From: Opitutus terrae PB90-1
GTDB taxonomy: Bacteria; Verrucomicrobiota; Verrucomicrobiia; Opitutales; Opitutaceae
NCBI RefSeq assembly: GCF_000019965.1
Contig: NC_010571.1
Coordinates: 496,001-560,000 of the forward strand
Direction: 5' to 3'
DNA: 64,000 bases
The notes under the pieces are model-generated. The model did no database searches, was not told where the DNA came from, and worked only from the letters and a program-made list of their open reading frames with translations. Below are positions 29,829 to 50,767 of this stretch, piece after piece; positions within the stretch are counted from its first letter, which is position 1; each line of letters begins with the position of its first letter. A program made the position numbers and the translations under genes.

Positions 29829-31361
29829 CTACGCGGACAGCACCCCACCTTCGGTTGCAATCGCGTCCGCCAGCCGCGTTCCGAGCGCCGCGTCGGTCAT
29901 CCCACGAACCTCCAGCTGCGCATCGAGGTGCGGGGCGATTTCGCCGAATGCCGGCCGGCGCTGGTCCTCGTCGTCCACCAGCACCAGATGCTTTACCCCC
30001 ACGCGCACCAGCAGTCCAAAAACTTTCCCGGCGTGCGCCCCCAAAGCCGGGATATGCTCAGCGGGACTGATTAGCCACCGCTGCTCGCCCGGCACCATGG
30101 GCAGCCGCGCCAAGTCGATCAGACCAACCGGACCGCACGTGTGGCTGGGCAGAAACTCGATTGCTTCGTGCTCCAAGCGCGCTACGCAACGCGCCAGCTT
30201 CTGGCTTGAGTCCCGGCCGGGCCGGGGTTCGCGGCTCGTCGATTCCGGGGTGGAGTCCGTCCCTGCGACACGCGTCAAAAACATTGCCGTCGTCTCGAGC
30301 GGCCCCGCCCACCGACTGAACACACAGGCGCGAACCTTCCGGCGGCGCGCCTCGAGCGGAGGGGTCGACTGAACGACACGCGGATCGCCACCGAGGCGTT
30401 GCACCATTTCTCGAAACGCCTGTTCGATCGTTCTCGATGCGCCCGCGGCAAAGTCGCCGATCCGGTCCGTATGCCGGGACCAGGCCGCAGCGGCATGGTC
30501 GATCCAAAAACTCGGCGGCCGACGCTCCCAACCGCTCGGGAGCAGGAAGTCCTCGGCAGGCAGTCCAATGTCGTGCAACAACGCCTCCATTTTGTGCGTG
30601 TTGGACGGCACGGCGAGAAATGGCCGGCCGTACTTGATCGCAAAACAGATCGCGTGAAACCGGCCGGTGATCAGCACCCTCGACGTATTCAGATCTTCGA
30701 GCGAAAAGAATCGTTCGTGAGCCAGCGGATGGCGCTCGTCGGCTTCACGTACCGCCCAGGCTTGCATCACGCGAAACGGCAGCCCGTGCGTGGCCGAGAA
30801 CTGTCGCAACCGCAGCGCTTCAGCGTCATCGACGCTGTCAATCACGAGCGCAGCGGCCGCCGGCGCTGTGACTCCCGCCTGAAAAGAAGGTTTCACCGTC
30901 GGCTCGGCACCAGCGCGGTACAGCGAAAGATCCGGTGCAGCGTGCGCGTGCGTCGCACCCGCCGCACGCATCGCCCCCTGGCTCAGGAGGTCTCTCGCAC
31001 ACACGAAGTCGAGCGCGCCCAGGCACGCGTTCGCCTGGCGGTTGTCCTGCCAGACGGCGTTGAGCAGCGCCGTCGTCCGTCCGGCCCGCTTCGTGTGAAG
31101 GATGGCGGCGCTCAGCGCCAATGCGCCCCGGCTGTCGTGGTGCATCGTTCCTTCCCCATTGACGATCACCGCATCCACCTGCTTCAGGCTCTCGTCGAAA
31201 CCAGCCGCGGCGAGAGGCTCAGCGGTGGTAAGCGTCCGCACCACCTCTAGACCATGGGCCGCACAGAGGTGCAGCAGGTTTTCCATGACGACGTTGCAGC
31301 CGAGATGCCGGTTGAAGGATCCCCGGCGCGTGTCGTTCAGAACCAAGACGCGCAATGGCAT
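29829..31361 (-). CDS. Polysaccharide pyruvyl transferase-family protein with a C-terminal cluster-specific domain
   Basis: 510 residues. Residues 1-330 are a pyruvyl-transferase domain (PF04230 type): VLVLNDTRRGSFNRHLGCNVV, AVIVNGEGTMHHDS, FVCARDLLSQ and the C-terminal VLITGRFHAICFAIKYGRPFLAVPSNTHKM (in pieces). Such enzymes add pyruvyl ketals to glycans. Residues about 340-510 are a second domain clearly related to the N-terminal half of the protein at 33056-34144 (shared HEAIEFLP, TCG, PGE-RW, AGKVF-LL, GVKH/GVRH, GEIAPHLD/GDIAPYLD). It is transcribed toward the maf gene, 3 bp from its stop. Confidence 0.8.
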   Translation of the reverse strand: MPLRVLVLNDTRRGSFNRHLGCNVVMENLLHLCAAHGLEVVRTLTTAEPLAAAGFDESLKQVDAVIVNGEGTMHHDSRGALALSAAILHTKRAGRTTALLNAVWQDNRQANACLGALDFVCARDLLSQGAMRAAGATHAHAAPDLSLYRAGAEPTVKPSFQAGVTAPAAAALVIDSVDDAEALRLRQFSATHGLPFRVMQAWAVREADERHPLAHERFFSLEDLNTSRVLITGRFHAICFAIKYGRPFLAVPSNTHKMEALLHDIGLPAEDFLLPSGWERRPPSFWIDHAAAAWSRHTDRIGDFAAGASRTIEQAFREMVQRLGGDPRVVQSTPPLEARRRKVRACVFSRWAGPLETTAMFLTRVAGTDSTPESTSREPRPGRDSSQKLARCVARLEHEAIEFLPSHTCGPVGLIDLARLPMVPGEQRWLISPAEHIPALGAHAGKVFGLLVRVGVKHLVLVDDEDQRRPAFGEIAPHLDAQLEVRGMTDAALGTRLADAIATEGGVLSA

Positions 31362-31436
31362 GGCTCAAATGAAGGACTGGCTGCGTTGCGACTGCGACGA
31401 TCGTGCCACTACAGATTGAGCCATCGTGGCCGCAGG

Positions 31437-32024
31437 CTAATCCCACACGTGTGCGTCCGCAGCCTCGAGCAACTGGTGGAGGATCAGCATGTGAATCTCC
31501 TGGATGCGCGAGGTTTTCTGGCCGGGCACGATCAACGCGTGATCGCACAGCGCACGCGCCCGGCCGCCGTCGCGGCCGCTGATCAGGATCGAGGTGACGC
31601 CGACCGCGCGAGCCTTCTCGAGCGCCGCCACCACGTTCGCGCTGTTGCCACTGGTGCTGAAGGCCACCAGCACATCCCCCGGCCGGCCATGCGCCTCGAT
31701 GCCGCGGGCAAAGATTTGCTCGAAACCAAAATCATTTCCTACACACGTCAGCACGGTTGAGTCGGCGCACAGGCAGATCGCCGGCAGCGCGCGACGCTTC
31801 TGCTGGAAACGACCGACGAATTCCTCCGCGAGGTGCATGGCATCCGCCGCGCTGCCGCCGTTGCCGCACGTCAGGACTTTACCGCCCGCCTGCAGGCTGC
31901 GGAACAGGCATTCGCCCGCCGCGTCGACCGCCGGACCCACTTTCGCCGACGCCTCCAGCAGCGCAGCGAGTTCGCGAGCAGAATCGGCAAACGACGGGTG
32001 GCTGGCGGGAGGTCGGCTTGTCAT
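31437..32024 (-). CDS. gmhA: Phosphoheptose isomerase GmhA
   Basis: 195-residue SIS-domain isomerase converting sedoheptulose 7-phosphate to D-glycero-D-manno-heptose 7-phosphate, the first step of ADP- or GDP-heptose synthesis. Family motifs: LTCGNGGSAADAMHLAEEFVGRF, LTCVGNDFGFEQIFARGIE, VLVAFSTSGNSANVVAALEKA and the C-terminal RIQEIHMLILHQLLE. Full length. The linked phosphatase gene at 32140-32754 would catalyse a later step, pointing to a heptose in the local glycan. Confidence 0.93.
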   Translation of the reverse strand: MTSRPPASHPSFADSARELAALLEASAKVGPAVDAAGECLFRSLQAGGKVLTCGNGGSAADAMHLAEEFVGRFQQKRRALPAICLCADSTVLTCVGNDFGFEQIFARGIEAHGRPGDVLVAFSTSGNSANVVAALEKARAVGVTSILISGRDGGRARALCDHALIVPGQKTSRIQEIHMLILHQLLEAADAHVWD

Positions 32025-32139
32025 GATGACGGTGGATTAACGGGAGACTTGGGCTCGGCTCGATCTCGGATCGACTCCTGTTCAATAACACAAAGCGGGT
32101 CTGGTTTTCACCGGAGACGAACCGAGGAATAATCGAGCG

Positions 32140-32754
32140 CTAGGTCAGGGAAAGCACATGTTGGATTGCCGCGTCGAAGCGATCGAAAACGGGAAACACG
32201 CCCTGCAGTCCGGCCGCGGTCATTTCCGCCTGCAGGTTCTCGAGTCCGGTGGCCACGCCGATGGCGCGCGCGCCAGTGTGCGCCGCCACCTGCAGATCCA
32301 GCGCGCGGTCGCCGATGCAGCAAAGCTCGTCCGCCCTCCAGCCGTGCTCGGCGAGAATTTCGCGCAGGAATGCTGGCGAGGGTTTGCGGTAGCGACTGGG
32401 CTGGTCCGGTGCTTCGGGTGCGATGCAGATCCGAGCGAACGGCTGCTCGCCGAGGTTCAGCAGCTCGATCATCCGCCGGTTGCAGGCCTCGACCGCCGCG
32501 AGCGGATAGTAGCCGCGACCGACGCCCGACTGATTGCTGTGCAGGAAGAGCGCAAGTCCGGCGTCGAGCGCAACCCGCAATCCGTCGTGGACGCCGGGCA
32601 GCAGCGCCACCTGCGCCGGATCCGCCAGATACGGCACGTGAGCGATCAGCGTTCCGTCCCGATCGAGGATCAGCCCTTTCACACGGCAGGCACGCGCCGC
32701 TACCCCAGTGCGAGTGACCCTGGCTGCTTGGTTTTCGTCGCGCGTCGAACTCAT
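32140..32754 (-). CDS. HAD phosphatase, GmhB-like (heptose bisphosphate 7-phosphatase)
   Basis: 204 residues, HAD family IIIA: LILDRDGTLI (nucleophile Asp), LFLHSNQSGVGRGYY, YRKPSPAFL and CCIGDRALDLQVAAHTGARAIGVATG (in pieces). The order and spacing match GmhB, which dephosphorylates D-glycero-manno-heptose 1,7-bisphosphate. The usual zinc-binding Cys cluster before RKP is absent (CIAPEAPDQPSRYRKP has only one Cys), so substrate preference may differ. It lies upstream of gmhA on the same strand. Confidence 0.82.
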   Translation of the reverse strand: MSSTRDENQAARVTRTGVAARACRVKGLILDRDGTLIAHVPYLADPAQVALLPGVHDGLRVALDAGLALFLHSNQSGVGRGYYPLAAVEACNRRMIELLNLGEQPFARICIAPEAPDQPSRYRKPSPAFLREILAEHGWRADELCCIGDRALDLQVAAHTGARAIGVATGLENLQAEMTAAGLQGVFPVFDRFDAAIQHVLSLT

Positions 32755-33055
32755 CCGATTCTCGGCAGTTCACTGCCCGCGCAGTCAGCGGATGGCAAAT
32801 GTTTCGTCGCGAGTGTCGTGCGCGCTTGCGCTGTGGCCGCTCGCAGGAGTGGGTTTGTCCCGCGATGAGGAGCACGCGGGCCTGCAGATCGCGGCGTAAA
32901 GCCGCTCCTACAATCCTGCAGGCGCGTCAGGTTGTTTCTACCCGAAGTGCCGGCGAGCGGTCATAAAACCGTCTGCCGTGCGACGTGGCACGGGCGTCTC
33001 GCCTATGAGGTTCCGCGACTTTGCGCCTTCTGCGCGTTTCTGCGGCAATTTCCGC
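32755..33055. repeat. 301-bp gap with three dispersed palindromic repeats
   Basis: No gene. It holds an inverted CAGGAG...CTCCTAC element with GCGGCGTAAAGCCGC (32844-32911), a GTGGCACGGGCGTCTCGCC element (about 32984-33002; family also at 25005, 50647 and 58502), and CCGCGACTTTGCGCCTTCTG (from 33013; inverted relative at 59961-59992). It separates the heptose/pyruvyl genes from the upstream glycosyltransferase block. Confidence 0.55.
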
Positions 33056-34144
33056 TCAGCGCAGCGACGCCAGCGTCTCCGCCACGACGGTGCCCACGCA
33101 CTCGTACCGGTTGTAGTACTCGTAGCTGCGGCGGCGCTCTTCGTTCGTCATGGCAAGGGCGCGCTCGCACTGCGCGATCAGCGACTTCGTGTCGCCGTGC
33201 TCGTAACGGAGAATCATGCCCTGTTCGTGCAGCGACTCGAGCCGGCCGCCAGGCTTCGAGTTCTCACTCACCACCACCATCCCCAGGCAGCCGGACCAGA
33301 ACGGCCGGTCGGTGTGCGTCTTTGCCATCCCCGGCGTAGTGAACCAGCGTCCCTCCGGACACAGCGCTACCTTGAACCGGTTCAGCTGCACCCGCTCGGC
33401 CGCCGCCGGCGAGTGTTCGTAGAGTGGGACGAACTTGTCTTTGAATTTCTCCTTCAGCGCCGCGATCTGCCGCTTGCGGTTATCGGTCAGTCCCATTTGC
33501 GAGCCGAGAAAGACGATCTTCTCCTCGGGCGCTTCGTTGAACGGCGGCACGAACGGCACGATGTTCGCGACCCAGCTCCGGTGAATATCAACGCACGACC
33601 GCTTGAGTCGCTGCCGGCCTTTTTCTTCGAGCGGATGCTCGTCATGGATGAGCACGTCGAGATACGGAGCGATGTCGCCGAAACACGGCATGAAGCGGCT
33701 AGCCTCGTCGAAAGCGTAGTAGAAATGTCGCACGCCCATCTTCGCGAGCAGTGAAAACACCTTGCCGGCGTTGCTGCCGAAATGGTTCGGCTGCCGGCCC
33801 ATGGTGAGGAACCACCGCTCCTCACCGGGCTCGCGGGGCGCACCGGAGAAATCGACCACACCCGCGGCGCCGCACGTCCATGCCGGCAGGAACTCGATCG
33901 CTTCGTGCTGCATCGCAGCGAAGCAGCGTGCGTTTTCCATGTACCAGTCACAGTCGAGCCGGGCCAGCCGGAGGAGCTTCGGGTCGTCCTTCTTCGCGAT
34001 CATCGGCCGCAGATCCATCTGCGGTGCGCGTGCCACATAGGCCGCCGCCTCCTCCAACTTCCCCGCCCAGTTGTTGAAGTAGCAGATCCGAACCTTGCGA
34101 GGCACGGGCGCATCTTTTTGCCTGGGGGGCTCGGGTAAATTCAT
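33056..34144 (-). CDS. Glycosyltransferase-like protein of the glycan island
   Basis: 362 residues from ATG at 34144; the frame is open upstream to 34297 but those residues look random. The N-terminal half (KVRICYFNNWAGKLEEAAAYV, AAMQHEAIEFLPAWTCG, GEERWFLTMGRQPNHFGSNAGKVFSLL) is shared with the C-terminal domain of the pyruvyl-transferase protein at 29829-31361. The C-terminal half (KIVFLGSQMGL, FKVALCPEGRW, HTDRPFWSGCLGMVVVSEN) has the look of a GT-B/exostosin-like glycosyltransferase with a donor-site Pro-Glu-Gly stretch. Substrates are unknown. A 168-bp gap precedes it. Confidence 0.7.
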   Translation of the reverse strand: MNLPEPPRQKDAPVPRKVRICYFNNWAGKLEEAAAYVARAPQMDLRPMIAKKDDPKLLRLARLDCDWYMENARCFAAMQHEAIEFLPAWTCGAAGVVDFSGAPREPGEERWFLTMGRQPNHFGSNAGKVFSLLAKMGVRHFYYAFDEASRFMPCFGDIAPYLDVLIHDEHPLEEKGRQRLKRSCVDIHRSWVANIVPFVPPFNEAPEEKIVFLGSQMGLTDNRKRQIAALKEKFKDKFVPLYEHSPAAAERVQLNRFKVALCPEGRWFTTPGMAKTHTDRPFWSGCLGMVVVSENSKPGGRLESLHEQGMILRYEHGDTKSLIAQCERALAMTNEERRRSYEYYNRYECVGTVVAETLASLR

Positions 34145-34312
34145 TTTGGCGCCACGCGAGTATGTGGCTGAAGCACCGACAATGTTGAGCAATTGGCCGC
34201 GGTATGGCGCAGTCGCGCAATCCGTTTCTCGGCGTGGTTGAGGCAAGCACCGACAGCGACCGGCACTGGGAAGCGGACCAAACCGACAGCCTGGCACCGC
34301 GTTGAGTACAGA

Positions 34313-35305
34313 TTAGGCATCTCGGACCAAAACCACATTGGCCATGAGATCCGAATGCCGGACCGTCTCCACGCACCGATAGCCCGGGAGCAGGGAAAGG
34401 AAACGGTCCAATCCGAGGTGCGCCTCGGCCAGAATGATGTCGAAATTGAGCCGCTTCGCCCGTGCGAGATCCTCGACAATTTCGTATTCGGCGCCCTCCA
34501 CATCGAGCTTCAGCACGCGTAGCTCGCCCGTCTGGGTGGGTGGCAGCGTCGCAAATGCGTCCGAAGCCTTCTTGATCTGCACCGTCTTTTTCTGCGATTG
34601 GCGCTTCCGCTCCGGCGTCCAGTAGGAGGCGTAAAACTCCGGCATGATCGTCGAGACGCCATCCGAAGCCTCTTCGTAAATGAGCTCCGCCGTCTTGTTC
34701 TCGCCGCCCAAACCGATGCAGAACGGGGTAATTTTAGGGGCAAGCGTCGGATTCAGCGCGATATTATCCAGCGCCCACTGATACGGCACATCGAACAGCT
34801 CGAATCCGTAGACTGCGCGGCAGGCGGGATGGCTCGCAAACCACAAGGCCGCATACCCGCGGTTCATGCCCACGTCATAGATCACGAAGGGGCGATCGAC
34901 CAACGCTCGTAACGAGCGATACTCCTCTTGGGCGAAGAGCTCGAGCAAGACGTAGAAATAGGCATCCGTCGCGAATCGCACGCCATCCTTCGTAAGAACC
35001 ATTCGTTTCGTGGTGGCATCGTAGCTCACGAACTGGATCCCATTCATCAGCGCGGCGAAGAGGAAATAGTCGATGTTCGGAATCGTCAGCGGCTCGGTTC
35101 GCCCCCTAAAGTAGGCCATCCGAAAAGCCTGATAAACAACCCCGGGTATGGCGGCGGTGCGCCGCAACTCCGTCAGCTCGTTACGCAGGGGCTGCAGCTG
35201 GGCCGCCATGGCACGGCGGACGGCTTGCTCGAGATCGGACAGCGCCTGCTGACTAGTCGCTGCGTTTGGGCTCGGTGTGGCCCGAGAGTGTAAATCGGGG
35301 ATCAT
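34313..35305 (-). CDS. FkbM-family methyltransferase (long form)
   Basis: 330-residue SAM-dependent methyltransferase. Methyltransf_21 signature: VIYDVGMNRGYAALWFA (SAM site), VYGFELFDVPYQWALDNIALNP, ITPFCIGLGGENKTAELIYE and LRVLKLDVEGAEYEIVEDL. An N-terminal extension of about 130 residues contains a helix (LSDLEQAVRRAMAAQLQPLRNELTELRR). FkbM enzymes O-methylate sugars in glycans. It follows the cytidylyltransferase/reductase gene by 12 bp. Confidence 0.85.
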   Translation of the reverse strand: MIPDLHSRATPSPNAATSQQALSDLEQAVRRAMAAQLQPLRNELTELRRTAAIPGVVYQAFRMAYFRGRTEPLTIPNIDYFLFAALMNGIQFVSYDATTKRMVLTKDGVRFATDAYFYVLLELFAQEEYRSLRALVDRPFVIYDVGMNRGYAALWFASHPACRAVYGFELFDVPYQWALDNIALNPTLAPKITPFCIGLGGENKTAELIYEEASDGVSTIMPEFYASYWTPERKRQSQKKTVQIKKASDAFATLPPTQTGELRVLKLDVEGAEYEIVEDLARAKRLNFDIILAEAHLGLDRFLSLLPGYRCVETVRHSDLMANVVLVRDA

Positions 35306-35317
35306 GCGAATAATCTC

Positions 35318-36634
35318 CTAGGCAACCTGCCGCACCAATCTGGCTCCTCCCCTTGAAGCGACTGGAACGTATTTTCGCAGGTTTACCACCTGGCCGGTGT
35401 CCAACGGCTGAGTGTACGCCACGATTAGTTCAGCCACCTCGGTTGGATCCAGCGGGTCCTTGTTAGTCACACGGCTGGTCGTGATCATTCGCGTATTCAC
35501 ACAGCCGGGATTGATGCAGTTGATCTTGACCTGGCACTCGCGCGCGAGAACCGGAGCTATCCCTTCAACAAAATTGTTCACGGCCGCTTTGGAAGCCGCA
35601 TACAGCGGAATGTTCTCCCGTCCCTTCGTGGCAGAACTCGATCCGACCACGACGATCGCACCTCCGCGCATGGCCCGGCGAGCCAGGTCAGTGACCGAAA
35701 CCACCGAACGGAAGTTCACGGCAAACAGCGAATCGACATCCATGGCGCTGCTGGCGTTGCTCAGCACGCCGGCGGAGTGAATGACAGCGTCCCATGGACG
35801 CAGAAACGCCGGCGGGATCGTCGGCGAGGCCAAGTCCCATTCGTGGCGGGTCGGTGTAGTCACGACGGCTCCATGGGTGCGGAGCAGCTCGTGCACAACA
35901 GAGCCAATGCCGCCCGTCGCGCCCAGCAGGAGGATCTGCTTCCCCCGAAGGTTGAGCTGGGGATTGGGATTCCCGGGCTGATACTGCAGGATTCGCTCCG
36001 CCACGAAGAGATCGTGCGGATAGGTGATCTTCAGATTGAACGGAGACCCCTGCACGACCTTGCAGCGCCCGCCAGAGCGCAGGAAGATACCCACGTCGTC
36101 TGTCGCCGTCAGCCGGCCAAGATTCGCTTGGTAGGCTTCGTGCAGCGCGCCGAAGCGAAACCCCTGCGGCGTTTGACCGCGCATCAGCTTGCTGCGATCG
36201 GGAATGCTTTCCACGAATCCATCGGCGACCTTCACGATCGTGTCGTCCGCCGGGATACAAACATCGACGGCATCGTTCTCCCGCAACGCGTCGACACAAT
36301 CCTTCAGGATCTGCTCGGTGACGAAGGGGCGCGCTGCGTCGTGAATAATGACGTAATCCGTGTCGGGATCACACGCCTGCAGAGCATTCCACGTCGATTC
36401 GTTGCGGGTGTTCCCACCGGCAATGTTGACATCACCGATCGCGGCACGCGGGTGATCCAGCCATTCTGGCGACAGCGCAACGATTATCTTGTTGAAGAGC
36501 CCGGATGTACGAAAGGTGGCCACAGCATGCTCGATCACCATGCTGCCATTGAGGAGGCAGAACTGCTTCGGGACGTCGGCCTCGAACCGATTGCCGGAGC
36601 CGCCCGCGAGAATGATACCGGTGACTTTTTTCAT
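35318..36634 (-). CDS. Bifunctional cytidylyltransferase / SDR reductase (CDP-ribitol synthesis type)
   Basis: 438 residues, two enzymes in one chain. Residues 1-230 are an IspD/TarI-like cytidylyltransferase: GIILAGGSGNRFEADVPKQF, VIIHDAARPFV, DDTIVKV, MRGQTPQGFRFGALHEAY, TDDVGIF. Residues 245-438 are a short-chain reductase: LLLGATGGIGSVVHEL (NADPH site), VVVGSSSATKG, YAASKAAVNNFVEG (Tyr-x3-Lys). This is the Bcs1 architecture, which reduces ribulose 5-phosphate and forms CDP-ribitol. The next gene upstream carries a teichoic-acid-transferase-like domain, which supports a polyol-phosphate product; another CDP-polyol is possible. Confidence 0.82.
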   Translation of the reverse strand: MKKVTGIILAGGSGNRFEADVPKQFCLLNGSMVIEHAVATFRTSGLFNKIIVALSPEWLDHPRAAIGDVNIAGGNTRNESTWNALQACDPDTDYVIIHDAARPFVTEQILKDCVDALRENDAVDVCIPADDTIVKVADGFVESIPDRSKLMRGQTPQGFRFGALHEAYQANLGRLTATDDVGIFLRSGGRCKVVQGSPFNLKITYPHDLFVAERILQYQPGNPNPQLNLRGKQILLLGATGGIGSVVHELLRTHGAVVTTPTRHEWDLASPTIPPAFLRPWDAVIHSAGVLSNASSAMDVDSLFAVNFRSVVSVTDLARRAMRGGAIVVVGSSSATKGRENIPLYAASKAAVNNFVEGIAPVLARECQVKINCINPGCVNTRMITTSRVTNKDPLDPTEVAELIVAYTQPLDTGQVVNLRKYVPVASRGGARLVRQVA

Positions 36635-36655
36635 CTTGTTCCGTTGGTTGGTGGC

Positions 36656-39967: not shown

Positions 39968-39974
39968 ATGTGAA

Positions 39975-40667: not shown

Positions 40668-40680
40668 GAGATCCCAAAAT

Positions 40681-43600
40681 TCAGACTGCTCCGGCCATCC
40701 TGACTGCCGTGTTTTGATCCGGAACAGGTGCGTTCCAAGAAGCTGGCAGCACTCGACGTCCCGAGAGAGAACGCCAGAGCCAAGCCTCGGGATCTGGCAG
40801 AACATACCGCGGCGCGACGGCTCGGGCGTTAGCAAGAAACCGTTGGCGGGTATCGGGCTCGGTTATCCGCCTGATCGCACGCTGCGCCTCGTCCGGGCGG
40901 TAGCTCGTGCAAAGCCCAACCCCATGGCGAAGCACAAACCGGCCGGCCGCAGTGTCAGGGCTGCCCAGCACCAGCATCGGTGTGCACGTTTTCGTCAGGA
41001 CGAACAGCATCCGAGAAGGCAAGCTCAGCCGGGAGAAGGACTCATTGTCCTCCGTTTCATCCAGCATGCCGCTCGGGATAACGACAAACGGATACGTCGC
41101 TATCCGCCGGATGAGATCGCGTTCGGGCAGGAAGCCAGCGCAGTGAATCCCGTCATTCGCCAATGCGAGCGGGTCGACGCCCAGCCATGCCGCTTTGGGA
41201 CCGCTTCCAAACCAGTCGATGGTCAGACCGGTGGCGCGAGTAAAGGCCCGCAAGCGCTCGAACTGAGCGAAGGTCCAAACATTGCCCAGCATCGCCGCAC
41301 GATTGGCCGGCGCCGTACTCCTATCCCAAACATTGACGACGGCGTCCGCGTTCGAGGTGAGCACGGGGGGCGCAAAGTGGAACGTGGTCCCAAACTTCCG
41401 CTCGTAGGACGCCGTCATTTCTTCCGAGATGGCGAGCCGCAGATCCGAAGCTTCGAACAACCGCTTCGCGGCGGAATCGGGCACGTTCGAAGTATAGACA
41501 TTCTGGTCGTCCATCACATAGGTGCAAAGGGGCGCGCCCGTCAGTTCACGCGCCAGATAGCCATGATGGAAATCGGCGAGGTAATAGGGGACGCACAGGA
41601 TTCGTCGAATCCGGCGTCCGTCGAGGAGCAGGCTCAGATCGCGGCGAATCGCATTTAAGGACAGCCCAGCCGATGGCGCGACCATGTTGATGGCCCCAAA
41701 GGACTCTTCGCCCTTGTACTGCGTGCGCGAACGCAGGGTGACGAAGGAGTGCGACGCGGGGAAAAAACGCTTAAGGAGAACGCCCACGCCGTGGTGCTCG
41801 TTGACCTCCAGGCCGCACACCAAAAGATCGTAGGCGTCTCGCGCGGCCCTTGGCGGAATTCTCGCCGACGGCGAGATTTCCCCCTTGGGGATGTTCGCCT
41901 GACCCTCAGCCAGCAGGAGCCATCGCTTGGCCCGCAAGTTGCCCGGCTGAGCCTGAAGTATCTGAGCAAGTACCGCACGGGCGCGCTCATGGTTTGTGAC
42001 CGTAAGCGCGGCCCAAGCCACTAGGAAATGGGAGCGGTAGTCGACGTCCCGACCATGCTCGAGTGCTCGCTCTGCGGCGACTAGCGCGGCCGCTGCATCT
42101 TCGATCTGCGCGTACGCTTCCGCCAGCGCCCGCCAAGCCGCCGCCTCCGAAGGCGCAAGCTCCGTTGCCCGCTGCAACGAGGTCAACCCATCGCGAATGT
42201 TCTCGGATCGCATCAAACTCCGTCCCAGGAGGAGGTGCGCTTCGGCCTGATCCGGATCGCTCCGCAGAACCTCGCACGCACAGCTTCCAGCGCGCGCCCA
42301 TTCTTTCAGCCCAAAGTAGGCCCACCCGGTGGCCAGAAGTCGGGGCACGCGTCGCGTCGCTCGACCTGGCATCAAGAACTCGTCCAGTGCGCGAACCCGG
42401 GGATCGAGCGGAGCGATCGCTCGCGCGTCCTTGATGATCTTTTCCAGAAAAGAACGATGTCCGGCCTCGAACGCCAACTCCGCGAGGACGGCCAGTACCT
42501 CGACGCTGCGCGGGTTCTTTCTCACGGCCGCTTGGGCCAGCGGCAGCGCCGCCGCAATCTGCCCCCGTTCCATCAAGAGCCGAGCCTCCTGCAATTCGCC
42601 CAACGTCGGTGCCGCAGGACGGCGCGCCGTTCCGCTCACATAGAAACCTTCGGCCTCGCCGGATCGCACCAGCTTCAGCGCGGCGAGCTGCGAGGCCACC
42701 CCCTTTGGGACCTGTCCGGCGATATCCCAAATTAAAATACGTGAGGCTGTCGTTCCGGCCGGCAGCTTAAAACAATCGCTCGATTGCACCTCGAGGTCGA
42801 CCGCTGCCACAGGATCCGTCGCAGGCTCAACGCGCGGCAGGGTTGTCCAAAGGCTGCAGATTTCCGCCGGTACATCGGGCGCGCAGCGGACGACCACACG
42901 TTCGCGCTGGCGGTGCATCTCCTGGACGCACTCATACGCACTCACCAACCCGTGGCTGAAATGAACTGAACTTGCTGTCGTCCGGCACAAGCCCGGAAAG
43001 AGCGGCGGCGGCGTGCCGTTGAACACCAGTTCCTGGAACAAGGTGCGTCGCTGGTCCGAGCGGAAATGCTGATCGAACCACGTCGCCCCTGCGGCCGCGA
43101 TTCTCGCCGCCTCCTCGGGGTGGCCGAGATAGTGCCTGGCCCGTTCAACCAACTCAGGAAGCGACCGGTAGGTCGCCATTTCGCGTCCTTCAGCCCACAC
43201 CTGACCGAGCCCCGCGGCCGGACTTAGCCAATCCGTGAGCAGCAGCGCGCCGCTCGACAGAATCTCGAAAATTCGCAGGTTGAGGTCGCCATTGAGGCTG
43301 GCGTTCAGCCCGATGCTTGACCGGCCGTAGTGCTGGAGCCCTTCGGTTTGCGACAGCACAGCGCGAGCAACCGGGAGACCGCCATCGACAAGTCCATCGA
43401 GCATCCGCGTGCGCCGTGGGTGCAATCCGCCAGCTTGGCCCACGAACGCGATCTGCCGCTCCCGCATTGATTGCCGGCTCGACGCTACGAGCGCGTCGGA
43501 GTGCGGAAACGTCAGCCCCGGAAACCAATACAGGTTCCGCAATCCGGCGTGCTCGAAGAACGTCGCGTGGTGCCGATCGTACAGGAATACGACACGATCG

Positions 43601-43944
43601 AACGGTTCACTCGTGGCATATTCCAGCATCCTGCTGATGGGCTGTTGCAGGTGGTGAGTATCGGCAACGAGCAGAATCTTGGGGCACGAAAACTGCGCGA
43701 GATTTCGCGGCAGATTCCGCCACGCGGCATCGACTAGACAGACAACCGCATCGATCGGTTGATCGGAATCCAGCTGTGCTGCGACGGTGGCGAGATCGTA
43801 TTCCCCGACCGGCGTCGCCAAGGAAAAGTAGTAGCCGTCGACTTCCTCGTTCGTCCAGTCCGGTCCGCAGTTTACCTGCTCGTCACCGAGCAGCGGTGGC
43901 GCCATGTAGCGGGCCGGCGAACCTGTCGCGAACAGGACGCGCAT
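40681..43944 (-). CDS. Giant fusion: CgeB-like glycosyltransferase - TPR - second glycosyltransferase
   Basis: 1087 residues. The N-terminal 330 residues are closely related to the protein at 36656-39967 (MRVLFATGSPARYMAPPLLG, VCLVDAAWRNLPRNL, WYWFPGLTFPHSD-type region, LNASLNGDLNLRIFEILSSG). TPR helices occupy about 440-660 (EARLLMERGQIAAALPLAQA, LLLGRSLMRSENIRDGLTSL, AAWRALAEAYAQIEDAAAAL). The C terminus (700-1087) is different: YDLLVCGLEVNEHHGVGVLLKRF, CTYVMDDQNVY, FGSGPKAAWLG, TCTPMLVLGSPDTAAGRFVL, i.e. a GT4/GT-B-type glycosyltransferase. The two paralogues thus share front and linker but carry different second enzymes. Confidence 0.78.
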   Translation of the reverse strand: MRVLFATGSPARYMAPPLLGDEQVNCGPDWTNEEVDGYYFSLATPVGEYDLATVAAQLDSDQPIDAVVCLVDAAWRNLPRNLAQFSCPKILLVADTHHLQQPISRMLEYATSEPFDRVVFLYDRHHATFFEHAGLRNLYWFPGLTFPHSDALVASSRQSMRERQIAFVGQAGGLHPRRTRMLDGLVDGGLPVARAVLSQTEGLQHYGRSSIGLNASLNGDLNLRIFEILSSGALLLTDWLSPAAGLGQVWAEGREMATYRSLPELVERARHYLGHPEEAARIAAAGATWFDQHFRSDQRRTLFQELVFNGTPPPLFPGLCRTTASSVHFSHGLVSAYECVQEMHRQRERVVVRCAPDVPAEICSLWTTLPRVEPATDPVAAVDLEVQSSDCFKLPAGTTASRILIWDIAGQVPKGVASQLAALKLVRSGEAEGFYVSGTARRPAAPTLGELQEARLLMERGQIAAALPLAQAAVRKNPRSVEVLAVLAELAFEAGHRSFLEKIIKDARAIAPLDPRVRALDEFLMPGRATRRVPRLLATGWAYFGLKEWARAGSCACEVLRSDPDQAEAHLLLGRSLMRSENIRDGLTSLQRATELAPSEAAAWRALAEAYAQIEDAAAALVAAERALEHGRDVDYRSHFLVAWAALTVTNHERARAVLAQILQAQPGNLRAKRWLLLAEGQANIPKGEISPSARIPPRAARDAYDLLVCGLEVNEHHGVGVLLKRFFPASHSFVTLRSRTQYKGEESFGAINMVAPSAGLSLNAIRRDLSLLLDGRRIRRILCVPYYLADFHHGYLARELTGAPLCTYVMDDQNVYTSNVPDSAAKRLFEASDLRLAISEEMTASYERKFGTTFHFAPPVLTSNADAVVNVWDRSTAPANRAAMLGNVWTFAQFERLRAFTRATGLTIDWFGSGPKAAWLGVDPLALANDGIHCAGFLPERDLIRRIATYPFVVIPSGMLDETEDNESFSRLSLPSRMLFVLTKTCTPMLVLGSPDTAAGRFVLRHGVGLCTSYRPDEAQRAIRRITEPDTRQRFLANARAVAPRYVLPDPEAWLWRSLSGRRVLPASWNAPVPDQNTAVRMAGAV

Positions 43945-43947
43945 GAC

Positions 43948-46314
43948 TCAGCAGCCGAGGCGGGCGGAAAGCGCTGCGATCTGCGGGTGATTCGGCGCGT
44001 GGCGCTTCAGCTCGGTGAACGCATCGCGCGCGAGGTCAGTCGCGCCGACGGCTTCCGCCAGGTCGATCAACATCAGCCACGCCTCCCCGTTCGTGACGTC
44101 GAGCTGCAGACTCGTCTGCAAGGCCTGAATCGCCTCACTGCTCTGGCCGTTTCCATGCATCGCCTGCGCGAGATAGAGCCAGCGCGCCGCGTTCGCGTCG
44201 GCGGCTTCCACCGCGGGCAACAGGTAGTCCACGGCACGCGCGACCTGACCGAGGCCCAACAGGGCTCGGCCGAGGAGTGCACGGGCCACGGCGTTTGCCG
44301 GCTGCGCCCGCAGCATCTGCCGCGCTTCGGCGGCTGCATTGAAATAGTCAGCGTCACTCAACGCCTGCTCGGCCGCCCGCAGATGCTCCGGCAGCGCGAT
44401 CGCGTCGCCGTTGATTTGGATCGGCCCGTCGTTGCCGTGGAGCTTTCGCTCGCCCACGGAAAGCATTTCGTCGAACGCGGACTCCAGCACATCGCCGAAC
44501 GCGTCGCCGGTCGCGAGCGCGTCGAATGGCCAGGCCACGCACGCCATCGTGCTGCGAATCCGTTCCGCCAGCCCGGCGCGCTGCTCGGCGTTGCGCGCGA
44601 GTCCTACCACCAGCCCGTTCATCTCTTCAGCGCGTGGCGCGATCAGTTCGCTGCAGCCAATCGAGCGTAGCAGCGCTGCCACGCGTTGACCGCGCAGATG
44701 CGCGCCCGCGTGCGTCACCACTGGCACGCCACGGCTCAGCGCCGCTACCGCCGCCGCATCCTCGCCGCTGACGTCGAGATAAACGTCCCCCAATGAAAGC
44801 ACCGCCTCCAGCTCGTGTTGCGAAGCCGGCACCGCGGTAAGTAGTACGCTGCGGTCATCAGCAATTCCAGCCCCGGCCAGCGCGCGATCGATCGCCGCGC
44901 AGGCGCGTGCTGCGATGTCCGCGTCAACAGCATCGGCGCCCGTCCGCTGGAACAACAACCGGCTGTTCGGCACCGCCGACAGCAGCCGGCTCCACGAAGC
45001 CAGAACCTCCGGTGTGATCTGGGTCCAGTCCGCCGCGGCAGCGAACACCACCGCATCCGCCGGCAGTCCAACGTCGGCACGCGTGATCTGCGTCTCGACC
45101 GCTCCGGTGCCCGTCACAAAATCGAACGTTCGCGCAGGCCCCGCCATCACGGCCAGCCGCTCGCTGAACTGCGCCGGATCCTTGTCCACCTCGGTGAACG
45201 CCCCCGCCACGAACACATCGATGTTCACGAAGCCGGTCGTGCCCCCATGGTGGGCCGACGTCGCAACCTGCAGCGGCGCCAGCCGCGCCGTCGCCAGTTT
45301 CGCGAGGTCGCCAAAACTGCCTGTCAGTTCGCCACAGAAAACCAGCACGTCGAGCATCGATCCAGCGATCAGGGCCGCCTGCTCCGCCACGTCTGCCGGC
45401 AGGGTCTGCACCTGCGCGGCGCTTTGCCGGACCGCGCTTTCCCAACGGTTCTCAGTCGGTCGCAGGATAAAAACCTGTGTCTCGAACCGATCCGGATCCA
45501 GATGACCGAGCAGCGGCATCGTAGCGTGCATCGCCGCGCTGCCATCGAATTCCGGCACCACAAATCCCAACCGCAGCAGCCGCCCCTCGCGACCGATCGC
45601 CACCGGCGGTTCGACGCTGATTTTTTTCCGTTCGAGCCGCGCGATCAGCCGCGCGTGCAGCTCGGCGTGCCGACGGAGGCTCTGCGAACTCAACCGCAGC
45701 AGCGCCTGGTTCGAACGAGTCTGGTAATGGTCCAGCGCCGTACGGACGGCAAGCGCCCCAGGATTCCGCTCCACACCTTCGACCAGCTTGGTGAGCTGTC
45801 GCTCGCAGTGCGCCGCGTAGGCGTCTGCCTGCCCCGGTGCCGCGAAACTCTCCGGCACGGCGAACAGCCACTCCGCACAGGTAAGCATCAACCACTCCGG
45901 CACACGCTCCAGCTCCGGTAAAACGGCGATCGCCCACGCCGGCCGCAGCAGCATCTGCGCAACCAGCCCTGGCCAGCCTTTCGCGACCGGAACCGCGGCA
46001 TCGCTCACGGCCAGTCGCTCCTGCACTCCCGCGGCCACAACCTTGCGGATCAATTCGCCGAGATCCGCACGCAGGATGGCATCGGTCGCGCTGTGCGGCA
46101 GCGCCGCCGCCGCGTTCGCCGCAGCCTGCACGGCGTTGCTGAAATTGGTCCAAGCTTCGGCCGACGCCGGTGCCGCCAGGTAGGTCGCGAGACAACTCCG
46201 GGCTGCTGCAACCGCGGCCGCGCATGGCTGCGCAGCAGACGGCTTGCCGTCCGGGGTCGCTTGAGGGGTTTGTGGCGTGACGAAGGGTTGAGGCAAAAGC
46301 GCGTCCAGAGGCAT
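43948..46314 (-). CDS. Divergent GT41-like glycosyltransferase with C-terminal TPR
   Basis: 788 residues from ATG at 46314 (an earlier ATG at 46365 adds 17 residues and overlaps a palindrome). A helical N-terminal region is followed by an O-GlcNAc-transferase-like catalytic part at about 235-620 (LRLGFVVPEFDGSAAMHATMPLL, APLQVATSAHHGGTTGFVNID, LGDVYLDVSGEDAAAVAALSRGVPVV). It has lost the canonical GTTTTCEALWMGVPVVT string. TPR repeats then follow (AARQMLRA-type helices, ALLGRALLGLGQVARAVDYL, AIQALQTSLQLDVTNGEAWL), the reverse of the usual TPR-first order. First gene of the leftward glycan operon. The activity may be altered. Confidence 0.7.
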   Translation of the reverse strand: MPLDALLPQPFVTPQTPQATPDGKPSAAQPCAAAVAAARSCLATYLAAPASAEAWTNFSNAVQAAANAAAALPHSATDAILRADLGELIRKVVAAGVQERLAVSDAAVPVAKGWPGLVAQMLLRPAWAIAVLPELERVPEWLMLTCAEWLFAVPESFAAPGQADAYAAHCERQLTKLVEGVERNPGALAVRTALDHYQTRSNQALLRLSSQSLRRHAELHARLIARLERKKISVEPPVAIGREGRLLRLGFVVPEFDGSAAMHATMPLLGHLDPDRFETQVFILRPTENRWESAVRQSAAQVQTLPADVAEQAALIAGSMLDVLVFCGELTGSFGDLAKLATARLAPLQVATSAHHGGTTGFVNIDVFVAGAFTEVDKDPAQFSERLAVMAGPARTFDFVTGTGAVETQITRADVGLPADAVVFAAAADWTQITPEVLASWSRLLSAVPNSRLLFQRTGADAVDADIAARACAAIDRALAGAGIADDRSVLLTAVPASQHELEAVLSLGDVYLDVSGEDAAAVAALSRGVPVVTHAGAHLRGQRVAALLRSIGCSELIAPRAEEMNGLVVGLARNAEQRAGLAERIRSTMACVAWPFDALATGDAFGDVLESAFDEMLSVGERKLHGNDGPIQINGDAIALPEHLRAAEQALSDADYFNAAAEARQMLRAQPANAVARALLGRALLGLGQVARAVDYLLPAVEAADANAARWLYLAQAMHGNGQSSEAIQALQTSLQLDVTNGEAWLMLIDLAEAVGATDLARDAFTELKRHAPNHPQIAALSARLGC

Positions 46315-46572: not shown

Positions 46573-46597
46573 GGCTTTTCAAGCCCGCCAGCCCGCC

Positions 46598-47440
46598 TCA
46601 GCTCACCGCGGCGCGCACCGGGCCGAATTGCTCTAAAGCTGCTTGTAGCGCGTCGTCGACTTCCTCGGCGGCAATCTCGCCGTATTCGAACTTGGCGGGC
46701 AGCGCCTTCCAATAGTCCAGTTCGCCCGGGAACCGATGGCCGCCACGCTCCGCCGCCCCCGAGGCCACATTAAGCAAACGCGCCAGCGGGGAACCCTCGC
46801 CCGCAGTGAGATAGTGGTCGCGGATTCCCTCCACCGTCTCCGCGGGGAACCTCCACTCCTTCAGAATGATCGCGGCCGCCTCACAATTGTTCATCCCGAC
46901 GAAGTTCACCTCCCACGTGGCGAGCGGCCCGGCCGAGTGACCGGGATAGCTGCCGCGATAGCTGCCACTGCGCGTCAGCCCGTCCAAGGCGATCTTGCCC
47001 ATCGAGCGCAACAGCCCCGCCGTGTACGCCAATCGCGCATCGACGCCGGCGCGCGGCGCGAGGATCTCCGCCACCAAAGCGGTGAGCAGCGCATTTTCGC
47101 GCACCTGCGCTCCGCTCACGCCGTAGATTGCCAGCGGCTTGTCCGCAACCTGCGACACCGCCGCGAAACCCGTTAGCCGGTAAACCTCCATGTAGCCGAC
47201 GCGCGCGAGGGCCTCCTCCAACGAGGCATAAGGCTGTCCGGCATTGTAGAAGGCGCTGTTGCTGATCCGGATGATGCGCGCCGTCAGCGAGGCATCGCGG
47301 CGCAGCAGCGCCGTGACTTCGCTCATGTCGGAGTTCGGGTCGAGCAGCAGATGACCGAGCTCGGCGAGAATGCGCGGGGCCGCGGGAATGGATTTCGCGA
47401 CATGCAGCAGCGTCTCGCGCGGAATAGGAGTGGCGCTCAT
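46598..47440 (-). CDS. HDOD domain protein with its own sigma-28 promoter
   Basis: 280-residue single-domain HDOD protein: IPAAPRILAELGHLLLDPNSDM, LLRRDASLTARIIRISNSAFYN, EALARVGYMEVYRLTGFAAV, RLAYTAGLLRSMGKIALDGL, EAAAIILKEWRFPAETVEGIRDHY. The ATG at 47440 is only about 10 bp past the -10 of a sigma-28 promoter, so the transcript would be leaderless or nearly so. The position next to two glycosyltransferase operons and the promoter tie it to flagellation. Confidence 0.87.
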   Translation of the reverse strand: MSATPIPRETLLHVAKSIPAAPRILAELGHLLLDPNSDMSEVTALLRRDASLTARIIRISNSAFYNAGQPYASLEEALARVGYMEVYRLTGFAAVSQVADKPLAIYGVSGAQVRENALLTALVAEILAPRAGVDARLAYTAGLLRSMGKIALDGLTRSGSYRGSYPGHSAGPLATWEVNFVGMNNCEAAAIILKEWRFPAETVEGIRDHYLTAGEGSPLARLLNVASGAAERGGHRFPGELDYWKALPAKFEYGEIAAEEVDDALQAALEQFGPVRAAVS

Positions 47441-47449
47441 CGGAGCGTC

Positions 47450-47476: not shown

Positions 47477-47554
47477 AGCCGAATTCCCGCGCCGTGACCA
47501 TCGCAGGCGCACCTCACTTTTCTGACAGGACCGGACACCCCTGCCACGCGACGC

Positions 47555-49438
47555 TCACGTTCCGAGGGCTCCGTGACGCAAGCACCACTCGCCCCAACAC
47601 TGCCGCAATCCCGCCGCGAATCGGGCCGCCTGCGCCGGATGATCAAGCAGCGGACTGCGCTTCAGGCCCTCGCGCAAATCCCGGCGCAGTTGGGCGCGTC
47701 TCGCCGGATCCGCGGCGAGCGCCAGCGCGATGGCCACGTAGTCATCCGCAGAGTGCGCGATCCATTCCGAATGACCGACCGCGCTCAGCAGGCTCACGCC
47801 TACGCGCGACGAATGCCGGTCTCCCGCCAGCGTCACCACCGGCACACCCATCCACAAGGCCTCGCAGGTCGTGGTCGTGCCATGATAGGGGAAGGTGTCC
47901 AGCGCCACGTCGACGCGATGGTACAGCGCCAGGTGCGCTGCGGTGTCGGGAGTGCGTTCAAGCAGTTCAACGCGGTCCACGGGCAACCCGGCCGTCTCCA
48001 TGCGGGCGACGTAGCGCCCGCGCGATTCAGGCTCCGACAGGCCTACCCCTTTCAGGAGCAGCCGGCCGTTCGGCACCTGCTTCAACAGCCGGCCCCACAC
48101 GGCCAGCATCGAATCGGTGATCTTCGAGAGATTATTGAAGCTGCCGAACACCACCGATCCATCCGCTGCCGGTTCACGCGTGTTGGGTGCGAGTGAGTCG
48201 GGCGGCGCAAGATAGGCCCATGCCGTCGGCGCAAACCGCACCAGTTTCTCCGTCGCCAACGCGTCCGCCTCACCCGGCGGGTCAGCGAGCGCGTCGGTGA
48301 AACGATAATCCATCGCCGCGACACCGGTCGTATCGGGATAGCCGAGATAGGTGATCTGCACTGGTGCCAGCCGATGGGCGAAGATCGGCAGCCGATTGAA
48401 TCCCGTGTGGCCGGCCAGATCGATCAGGACGTCCGGCGCGTCTTCGCGGATCGTGGCCTCCACGAAGGAATGCGAACGTCCCACGAAATTTCGCCACACC
48501 GCGGCGCGCGTCCGAAAACGCGCGGTCACCTCGTCTTCGCGCGGGTGATTGTGGTAGAGACACAGCTCAAACTCCCGCGGATTCAGGTGCTGCAAGAGCG
48601 GCTCGATAAAGTAGGCGCAGGCGTGAAGCCGAAAATCAGGCGACAGCACGCCCACCCGCAGCCGCCGGTTCGGGTCTGGCACGTTCTTGAACGCCTGAAC
48701 CGTGGGCCCGCCGGCGATTCGTCCGTACTCCACATGCTCCGCGAACAGTTGGTCGCGCGAAACCCCTTCGAGGTAGTGCAGCGCGAACAACCGGTAGCTC
48801 CGCGCCTCGAGATTTCCCGGCTGCCGGGCGAGCACGCGGCCATAGTCTTCCACCGCTTCGGGAATCCGGTTCGTTTGCTGCAATGCTTGCGCGCGACCAA
48901 ACCGCGCCTCGGCGTGATGCGGGTCGATCGCGAGCGCGCGTTCGTGACAGGCAAGAGCTTCCAGGGGTCGCGCCGCGAGACTCAACGTGAGGCCGTAGTT
49001 ATACCACGCCAGCGCGTCCTTCGGCTCCAACTCGATGGCTTTCTGATAGCAGTCGATCGCCTCGCGCAGCCGGTTTTGGGTCTTCAGGCAGTGGGCCAGG
49101 TGCGTCCAGGCTTCGTGCAGCTGCGGCTGGCGTGTCACCACGCCACGCAGATGCGCCTCCGCTTCCTTGTGTCGTCCCAGCGCCACGAGCACCATGCCCA
49201 ACTGCATCGCACAGGGCGCCGACTGGGGGTTCACGCGCAACGCCCGTTGCAGCAGATCCGCGGCCTCGGCCATTCGGCCCAACTGGAAGTTCACCAGGCC
49301 GAGCAGGTGCAGCGCTTCGAAGCTTTTGGGCGCGCCCAGCACCGCCTGCCGGTATTGTGCCTCCGCCTGAACCAGCCGTCCGGCGCGATGGTGCGCCGCG
49401 CCGGCTTGCAGCAGGGAAATGAGTTTGGCGGAGGTCAC
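47555..49438 (-). CDS. TPR-GT41 O-linked N-acetylglucosamine transferase-like protein (SPINDLY/OGT family)
   Basis: About 627 residues from GTG at 49438; an upstream GTG at 49546 would add 36 Arg-rich residues, and neither has a clear Shine-Dalgarno. TPR repeats fill the first half (AQYRQAVLGAPKSFEALHLLG, AIDCYQKAIELEPKDALAWYN, ALACHERALAIDPHHAEARFG). The GT41 catalytic half has RLRVGVLSPDFRLHACAYFIEPLL, DLAGHTGFNRLPIFAHRLAP, QITYLGYPDTTGVAAMDYR, FGSFNNLSKIT and LDTFPYHGTTTTCEALWMGV. All donor-binding motifs are intact. In bacteria such enzymes often modify flagellin or surface proteins. Confidence 0.88.
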   Translation of the reverse strand: MTSAKLISLLQAGAAHHRAGRLVQAEAQYRQAVLGAPKSFEALHLLGLVNFQLGRMAEAADLLQRALRVNPQSAPCAMQLGMVLVALGRHKEAEAHLRGVVTRQPQLHEAWTHLAHCLKTQNRLREAIDCYQKAIELEPKDALAWYNYGLTLSLAARPLEALACHERALAIDPHHAEARFGRAQALQQTNRIPEAVEDYGRVLARQPGNLEARSYRLFALHYLEGVSRDQLFAEHVEYGRIAGGPTVQAFKNVPDPNRRLRVGVLSPDFRLHACAYFIEPLLQHLNPREFELCLYHNHPREDEVTARFRTRAAVWRNFVGRSHSFVEATIREDAPDVLIDLAGHTGFNRLPIFAHRLAPVQITYLGYPDTTGVAAMDYRFTDALADPPGEADALATEKLVRFAPTAWAYLAPPDSLAPNTREPAADGSVVFGSFNNLSKITDSMLAVWGRLLKQVPNGRLLLKGVGLSEPESRGRYVARMETAGLPVDRVELLERTPDTAAHLALYHRVDVALDTFPYHGTTTTCEALWMGVPVVTLAGDRHSSRVGVSLLSAVGHSEWIAHSADDYVAIALALAADPARRAQLRRDLREGLKRSPLLDHPAQAARFAAGLRQCWGEWCLRHGALGT

Positions 49439-50760: not shown

Positions 50761-50767
50761 TTTCACC

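Follow-up and report, generated by a model that had tools for sequence, protein, structure and literature searches.

A flagellin-linked glycan island of Opitutus terrae PB90-1 with a predicted ribitol-phosphate module

In the Type A flagellin modification of Clostridioides difficile, encoded by cd0240–cd0244, the TagF-like protein CD0244 and the nucleotidyltransferase CD0242 are required for the addition of a phosphodiester-linked group to a flagellin sugar, in a set with a methyltransferase and CD0241 (PMC10714395, PMC4441256). A mutant study published in 2023 reported that all four genes cd0241–cd0244 are needed for full phospho-N-methyl-threonine on the N-acetylglucosamine of flagellin, and its authors proposed cytidine diphosphate (CDP)-threonine as the donor (PMC10714395). 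In an earlier study, the full glycan was still found in a cd0244 mutant (PMC4441256). The b-type locus of Pseudomonas aeruginosa PAO1 (pa1088–pa1091) carries a glycosyltransferase (GT) and a CD0244 homologue in one protein, PA1091, beside the methyltransferase PA1088, PA1089 and the CD0242 homologue PA1090 (PMC11833859). A stretch of 64,000 nucleotides from the soil bacterium Opitutus terrae PB90-1 (Verrucomicrobiota, Opitutaceae), called the window below (bases 496001–560000 of the single-contig genome of 5,957,605 bp), contains an island of glycan genes beside four flagellin genes and a Maf-type glycosyltransferase gene. With a probability of roughly 0.65, this island is a donor-swapped relative of Type A modification, which would place ribitol phosphate on a flagellin sugar. 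A polyol phosphate is likely the distinctive chemistry of the island, with ribitol phosphate as the most plausible candidate.

Compared with Type A, the window has a fusion of an IspD-type cytidylyltransferase and a short-chain reductase (IspD-SDR) in place of the HAD protein and the LicC-like nucleotidyltransferase, its transferase is fused to a CgeB-type GT and to tetratricopeptide repeats (TPR), and the predicted donor is CDP-ribitol. The Type A trio of SerB-like HAD, LicC-like nucleotidyltransferase and methyltransferase was not seen beside the TagF-like gene of the window. It was found in six of the 12 related loci described below; with the TagF-like gene, these six correspond to cd0241–cd0244 in all four kinds of gene, a likeness by family and not by direct sequence comparison. 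The PAO1 system differs in that its moiety was assigned as phosphate-linked N,N-dimethylthreonine, and the published account of the locus, as far as it was consulted, mentions neither TPR nor a polyol synthase (PMC11833859). A precedent for the TPR fusion is FlmG of Caulobacter, whose TPR part binds the flagellins and is needed for their modification by the GT domain (PMC7591256). FlmG uses pseudaminic acid, made by the NeuB pathway (PMC7591256), whereas the window genome has no NeuB match.

The layout of the window island is that described for the flagellin-glycosylation islands of Enterobacteriaceae (PMC4875605). Type 12 of these islands, reported in 2016, is also variable and flagellin-linked and includes ribitol biosynthesis genes in two strains; it differs from the present case in that it comes from another phylum, is inserted between fliC and fliA and is a genomic prediction (PMC4875605). 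The strings "glycerophosph" and "teichoic" are absent from the main text of that paper (PMC4875605). An earlier, sequence-only reading of the window had proposed a glycan, on flagellin or another surface protein, combining ribitol phosphate with heptose, pyruvyl and methyl groups and knew of no described flagellar precedent. This last statement goes too far, given the ribitol genes of the enterobacterial island (PMC4875605) and the TagF-like protein that genetics has tied to the flagellin modification of C. difficile (PMC10714395). In the open-access literature, searched mostly through titles and abstract openings, no report was found of ribitol phosphate on flagellin or of flagellin glycosylation in Verrucomicrobiota. 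Within the same literature, one flagellin-linked transferase family with three different donor gene sets appears to be new.

All genes named by the sequence-only reading are present, each supported by a domain match, a coding signal or close relatives, and the glycan island that it described beside four flagellins and a Maf is thus confirmed (Table 1). The flagellins and Maf lie on the plus strand (22894–29825), and ten glycan genes on the minus strand (29829–46314) point towards Maf, the nearest of them lying three bases beyond its end. The reading frames of the island are intact. Flagellin_N and Flagellin_C were both matched on the three flagellin reading frames scanned, and residues 141–210 of each of the four flagellins hold 17–20 serines and threonines by alignment count. 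The four flagellins are likely the acceptor of the glycan.

The ribitol prediction starts from the IspD-SDR gene, in which the Y-x-x-x-K motif of the reductase is kept (YAASK). Acs1/Bcs1 of Haemophilus influenzae, bifunctional CDP-ribitol enzymes of a capsule locus rather than a flagellin locus, have the same pairing of an IspD-type cytidylyltransferase with a short-chain reductase. The best PDB match of the window protein is the ribitol-5-phosphate cytidylyltransferase TarI (4jis; 2.7e-36, 128.6 bits). Because the window genome holds two other IspD-like genes elsewhere, the fusion is unlikely to be the isoprenoid enzyme. In 100 family genomes, with at most 17 candidates scored per genome, full-length IspD-SDR occurs in three: that of the window (G000) and two others (genomes are labelled G below, and fetched loci or stretches compared with the window are labelled L). 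The copy of G252 is 74% identical and sits between a TagF-like fusion and the putative glycosyltransferase GTx, beside Maf and flagellin (L080). That of G254, 38% identical, has as neighbours a Maf, the HDOD border gene described below and a PF04464 protein scoring 83 bits; its contig (L100) ends before any flagellin. All three full-length fusions lie in this kind of island. Only one close and one distant relative in 100 genomes share the fusion, which makes the combination described by the sequence-only reading an assortment of modules and not a single conserved system.

The choice of ribitol meets some resistance in the same data. The structure 3f1c, titled putative MEP (2-C-methyl-D-erythritol 4-phosphate) cytidylyltransferase 2, ties with TarI at 128.5 bits, the next IspD following at 118.5, and the ribitol assignment is therefore slightly weaker. 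With the NCBIfam models, the IspD half scores 199 against an ispD cut-off of 181 and 156 against the cut-off of 166 for ribitol-5-phosphate cytidylyltransferase, so that these models do not fix ribitol as the substrate. Flagellin might thus be modified from a donor other than ribitol (another pentitol, an erythritol-type polyol or glycerol), or the IspD-SDR cassette might be a recent acquisition without function. The block 34313–40835 (FkbM, IspD-SDR, TagF-like fusion, FkbM) has a guanine-plus-cytosine content of 57.8–61.2%, against 62.9–67.7% in nine other genes measured, which is in keeping with import as a cassette and lends this explanation some weight. It is nevertheless considered rather unlikely, as the frames are intact and the 74% identical copy in L080 also lies beside a TagF-like fusion.

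The predicted ribitol-phosphate transferase is a TagF-like domain at approximately residues 710–1105 of the 1111-residue CgeB-TPR fusion. PF04464 (TagF, CDP-glycerol glycerophosphotransferase) was the sole Pfam match at E 0.1 in all six domain sequences scanned, and the island-type copies of G237 and G301 exceed the cut-off of this family. A profile of six sequences gave TarL, a ribitol-phosphate polymerase, as its best, weak PDB match (E 0.11). An AlphaFold2 model built from 13 sequences, with a mean predicted local distance difference test score (pLDDT) of 89.5, has a GT-B fold and matches TagF (3l7m; Z 22.8, 329 residues aligned, root-mean-square deviation (rmsd) 4.0) and TarL with CDP-ribitol (Z 22.2). 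When 13 island copies were aligned with nine PF04464-type proteins from the same and related genomes, RPHP (the [RK]xHP motif, His243) and Asp295 were found in all 13 island copies, and D-A-S-[ST] (the D-x-S-[ST] motif) in 12 of them, in agreement with the comparison proteins.

A second group of observations on this domain is unfavourable. The window copy reaches 20.4 bits, below the PF04464 cut-off of 22.1. The top fold matches of the model are non-hydrolysing UDP-GlcNAc 2-epimerases (WecB, 3dzc; Z 24.3, 329 aligned, rmsd 3.9), so that the predicted fold does not decide between TagF and an epimerase. The histidine motif HGxxxK, presumably that of TagF His444, is absent from all 13 island copies, which have PY[AG][LIM][EV][IV]xG instead; it is present in eight of the nine comparison proteins, the ninth (L108) having HS. 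The PDB entries matched include TagF H444N mutants, to judge by their titles. Because this motif is missing, the domain is named TagF-like here and is not filed as TagF. Elsewhere in the window genome, at an unrelated, non-flagellar site near pyrH/frr/proB-like genes, there is a second TagF-like/IspD-like pair (L105:7288–9079; genome 5,372,288–5,374,079), so that a CDP-activated polyol may serve other purposes too. TagF-like genes also lie beside IspD-like genes at non-flagellar sites of other Opitutaceae (L109, L111).

From the epimerase matches, the lost histidine motif and the second gene pair, it could be argued that the island modifies flagellin with another GT-B enzyme in the TagF-like position, either epimerase-like or a sugar transferase, and that the IspD-SDR product is used elsewhere, for example in a surface polymer. 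This is thought unlikely. PF04464 was the only Pfam family matched by the six domain sequences scanned, and nucleotidyltransferase gene sets, which an epimerase would not need, adjoin the domain in 11 of its 13 copies.

These sets point to a transferase whose donor may be exchanged between species. A scan of the TagF-like domain against genome contigs of 84,980 species yielded 12 further loci, labelled Opitutaceae, Opitutus, Didemnitutus, Opitutia/Opitutae or Puniceicoccales. Eleven of the 12 are flagellin-linked, with flagellins inside ten of them and 14 kb away for L147. Three kinds of donor set stand beside the domain. IspD-SDR is found in L139, besides the window. A TagD-like cytidylyltransferase of 160 residues is found in L140, L141 and L146; its best match, at 93 bits against an equivalog cut-off of 165, is glycerol-3-phosphate cytidylyltransferase. 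In L137, L138, L142, L143, L145 and L148, the set consists of a methyltransferase, a SerB-like HAD protein and an NTP_transf_3 nucleotidyltransferase, the last with the phosphocholine cytidylyltransferase LicC as its sole PDB match (E 1.6e-5). The family calls for the glycerol-type set and for the methyltransferase/HAD/nucleotidyltransferase set were made on one representative each (L086 and L075). No donor genes were seen beside the domain in L144, where the contig ends, or in L147. One of the three sets thus adjoins the domain in 11 of the 13 copies, that of the window included.

In the tree of the domain, the three glycerol-type rows make up a single clade, two changes are required for the threonine-like type, and the two ribitol-type rows stand apart. 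As the two ribitol-type domains lie in different parts of the tree, the domain acquired or exchanged its IspD-SDR partner on more than one occasion. Two points count against a close tie between domain, donor and flagellin: the lineage of the domain does not determine the donor type, which limits any claim of tight specificity, and L148 carries a donor module beside the fusion with no flagellin in its 12.6 kb. A broader proposal is put forward tentatively, at somewhat less than even odds. Opitutaceae may possess one family of flagellin-docked phosphotransferases served by interchangeable CDP-donor modules, and one kind of filament glycan would then bear ribitol phosphate, glycerol phosphate or methylated phospho-threonine according to species; the glycan of the window would also be anchored or capped by a Maf that uses Kdo (3-deoxy-D-manno-octulosonic acid) or another non-nonulosonate sugar activated with cytidine monophosphate (CMP).

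The link to flagellins also holds for other genes of the island. When the 100 family genomes were searched for flagellin, GTx and FliP, they were found in 57, 18 and 57 genomes, respectively. Flagellin is present in 17 of the 18 genomes with GTx and in 40 of the 82 without it (Fisher P 2e-4, uncorrected for genome relatedness), and this association is therefore not due to chance. FliP is present in 15 of the 18. Forty stretches were fetched, 35 of which are anchored on flagellins in 35 genomes chosen from the flagellin search and mostly cover one side only; the following counts use the 31 flagellin-anchored stretches of at least 19 kb from other genomes, searched with the window proteins. At least one island family occurs in 19 of the 31, so that the search for the same genes beside flagellins in relatives, suggested by the sequence-only reading, was positive, as it was for 11 of the 12 TagF-like loci. 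GT41 was found in 11 stretches, divergent GT41 in ten, GTx in seven, and the CgeB-TPR-GT protein and Maf in six each. The CgeB-TPR-TagF protein was matched in six, two of them (L058, L071) by the CgeB part only, which leaves the TagF-like part in four of 31. A whole-protein search with P0007 over the class gave at least 10 of 236, with at most three candidates scored per genome.

Gene order and content of the islands vary by genome, and the flanks recur, with flagellins on one side and an HDOD-domain protein on the other. This far-border protein, usually with a PAS kinase, was found in nine of the 31 stretches, where the stretch reaches that far, and also in L078 (flagellins in the adjoining L090), L089, L137, L138, L142 and L145. 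Transferase and sugar-donor genes next to flagellins, and variable content between recurrent flanks, are the features of a flagellin-glycosylation island, and both are present here. That the cluster is such an island rather than an O-antigen locus is well supported.

The linkage has exceptions that weaken it. None of the island families was found in 12 of the 31 stretches, although in at least four of these (G250, G303, G282, G240) a Maf is present no more than about 5.5 kb from the flagellins on their unsearched side. One genome, G247, has GTx and neither a flagellin nor a FliP match. Besides GTx, its locus (L092; G247:C127:6515–11768) retains a GT41 piece of 200 residues and the HDOD and PAS-kinase genes of the border. 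Families such as FkbM, pyruvyltransferases and heptose enzymes are common in capsule and O-antigen loci. Together with G247, they could suggest that the genes make a surface polysaccharide or a lipid-linked glycan and lie near flagellins by accident. This explanation is held to be quite improbable. The scan of the island proteins matched no flippase, polymerase, ABC-exporter, lipid-carrier or initiating-transferase family, Maf and GT41/TPR proteins are present, and the flagellin linkage is repeated in relatives. An O-antigen or capsule locus was rejected as the main explanation because export, polymerase and initiating families are missing from the scanned proteins and the genes track flagellins, and on the same grounds the modification of flagellin, one of the two options of the sequence-only reading, is supported. 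That reading had named the island in a non-flagellated relative, as an O-antigen locus, as a finding that would speak against it. G247 corresponds to this only in part, with GTx, the GT41 piece and the border genes, and its locus looks like a decaying island after the loss of flagella.

If the island is a donor-swapped relative of Type A modification, the following course of events can be envisaged. By analogy with FlmG, the TPR-fused transferases would dock cytoplasmic flagellin, and the glycan would be built on serine or threonine before export. A GT41 or CgeB domain may set the first sugar, which GTx and the second fusion would extend. IspD-SDR would reduce ribulose-5-phosphate and activate the resulting ribitol-5-phosphate with cytidine triphosphate (CTP) to give CDP-ribitol, from which the TagF-like domain could transfer ribitol phosphate to a sugar set by a GT domain, either its own or a neighbouring one. 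Trimming, extending or finishing the glycan might then fall to the FkbM and pyruvyl genes and to the possible heptose genes. The system would thus work like the Type A modification of C. difficile and the b-type modification of P. aeruginosa, with the CDP-threonine module swapped for a CDP-ribitol module. In that case, phosphodiester modification of flagellin would extend beyond the threonine type of C. difficile and P. aeruginosa, and polyol phosphate of the wall and capsule type, a teichoic-acid-like chemistry, would occur on a protein of a Gram-negative phylum. It would also be a plug-in system with an exchangeable donor, in which the role of the phosphate-linked group can be tested by swapping a small set of genes, and part of the Maf family would be separated from nonulosonic acids.

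The last point concerns the Maf of the window, which carries the MptE-like/Maf domain and has 5mu5 as its sole PDB match (E 1.7e-8). The window genome gave no PF03102 (NeuB) match, in a search that was positive, as a control, in nine of 14 genomes. As NeuB was not found, a nonulosonate glycan made through Maf was rejected for this genome, and its Maf probably does not use nonulosonates. A Maf tree of the family (19 rows) has two deep clades, with a long-branch warning on their join. Five of 22 Maf loci (L118, L119, L120, L124, L131) are outside the tree, having no match to the window Maf at 1e-5; their genomes (G250, G240, G244, G276) all have NeuB. The long clade comprises eight rows of 526–605 residues, all from NeuB-bearing genomes. 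The short clade comprises 11 rows of 367–509 residues from ten genomes, with members in the window, L053, L057, L058, L064, L079, L080, L100, L129 and L130. Six of the ten genomes have no NeuB match (G000, G231, G252, G254, G169, G267). The remaining four show strong (G245, G183, G263) or weaker (G268) matches. Within the literature searched, a Maf clade most of whose genomes gave no NeuB match appears to be new.

A KDO8P synthase above the cut-off and at least one CTP_transf_3 protein were found in each of the seven short-type genomes tested (the six without a NeuB match, and G268). The window genome has KdsA and a single gene with a CTP_transf_3 match, at 2,400,798. A PseF/KdsB-like CMP-sugar synthetase adjoins the short-type Maf in L100 and L142, as does a weak CTP_transf_3 protein (38 bits) in G245; such neighbours speak for some CMP-sugar. 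The Maf of Clostridium botulinum has a legionaminic acid derivative as its native donor and accepts CMP-Kdo when this donor is absent (PMC11339370). Based on this analogy and on the KDO8P synthase and CTP_transf_3 genes of short-type genomes, Kdo can be offered as a guess for the donor of the window Maf.

Table 1. Features of the flagellin-linked glycan island and its borders (positions in the window).
Feature	Position	Strand	Support
Four flagellins	22894-23709, 23951-24772, 26118-26939, 27181-28002	+	Four Flagellin_N matches in the stretch
Maf-type flagellin glycosyltransferase, short clade ("clade B")	28296-29825	+	PF01973 3.6e-25; Maf tree
Polysaccharide pyruvyltransferase fused to truncated N-terminal copy of GTx	29829-31361	-	PF04230 2.1e-9
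GmhA-like sedoheptulose-7-phosphate isomerase (SIS)	31437-32024	-	TIGR00441 202 bits, cut-off 209
HAD-IIIA phosphatase, GmhB-like	32140-32754	-	TIGR01662 81 bits (over cut-off); GmhB models below cut-off
GTx, putative glycosyltransferase, no named family	33056-34105	-	No Pfam match (longer frame), no NCBIfam match
FkbM-type methyltransferase	34313-35305	-	PF05050; TIGR01444 over cut-off
IspD-SDR fusion of the Acs1/Bcs1 type, predicted to reduce ribulose-5-phosphate and make CDP-ribitol	35318-36634	-	PF01128 6e-52, PF00106 8e-21
CgeB-type GT + TPR + TagF-like domain, predicted ribitol-phosphate transferase	36656-39967	-	Domain scans, model
FkbM-type methyltransferase	39975-40835	-	PF05050 6e-11
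CgeB-type GT + TPR + C-terminal GT-like domain (no Pfam match)	40681-43944	-	Domain scan
Divergent GT41 with C-terminal TPR	43948-46314	-	PF13844 7.4e-17
HDOD-domain protein, regulator and not a glycan enzyme	46598-47440	-	PF08668 6.2e-33; recurs in related islands
TPR-GT41 with canonical motifs, possible initiating O-glycosyltransferase	47555-49438	-	PF13844 5.8e-42
HDOD protein + PAS hybrid histidine kinase, recurrent far border in relatives	49441-52696	+	Domain matches, loci of relatives

The longest reading frame at the GmhB-like gene (32108–32875) is the wrong frame for GmhB. The frame of the second FkbM gene overlaps the neighbouring gene, and its true start is therefore probably downstream of 40835. 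The C-terminal part of the second CgeB fusion is also found in L049, L057, L058 and L071. The HDOD gene between the two GT41 genes was not named by the sequence-only reading, and the HDOD and PAS hybrid-kinase pair beyond them is a recurrent island neighbour in Opitutaceae.

A structural model of GTx built from four sequences is of medium confidence (pLDDT 65.7), and the best PDB matches are weak ones to GT-B enzymes (E 2e-4 and worse). Residues 341–483 of the pyruvyltransferase repeat GTx residues 3–153 in truncated form (43% identity, E 4.4e-32). In L049, a stand-alone pyruvyltransferase adjoins a whole GTx, and a recombination scar in the window protein is therefore likely.

The two GT41 proteins of the window differ in their motifs. 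SPDFRLH and NLSKI of the TPR-GT41 protein are replaced by VPEFDGS and DWTQI in the aligned divergent protein. The His and Lys of these motifs, which are presumed to be catalytic as in OGT-type GT41 enzymes (OGT/SPINDLY), are thus kept in the former and missing from the latter. Its relatives (L050, L056, L057, L058, L067, L069, L071, L073, L078, L080, L147) belong to a family found beside flagellins. In an alignment of 13 rows, none has the canonical His at its column, several having a His four columns earlier, and five have the canonical Lys. From these substitutions, the divergent GT41 possibly uses another donor or serves as a non-catalytic adaptor.

The heptose part of the sequence-only reading is weakly supported: GmhA- and GmhB-like genes are present, but both score below the respective NCBIfam cut-offs, and a heptose kinase or nucleotidyltransferase was not seen in the island. 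An rfaE_dom_II-like gene, below its cut-off, lies elsewhere in the genome. A shared heptose-type step is hinted at by GmhA-like genes in L070 and L099 and by GmhB-like genes that lie close to GTx in L091 and L097, two loci in which no flagellin was seen. By eye, epimerases and transketolase-like pairs accompany GmhA-like and HldE-like genes in L070:9010–12243 and L099:2806–6038. Those of L070 adjoin flagellins and a CgeB fusion, and similar transketolase-like and epimerase genes are found in L052.

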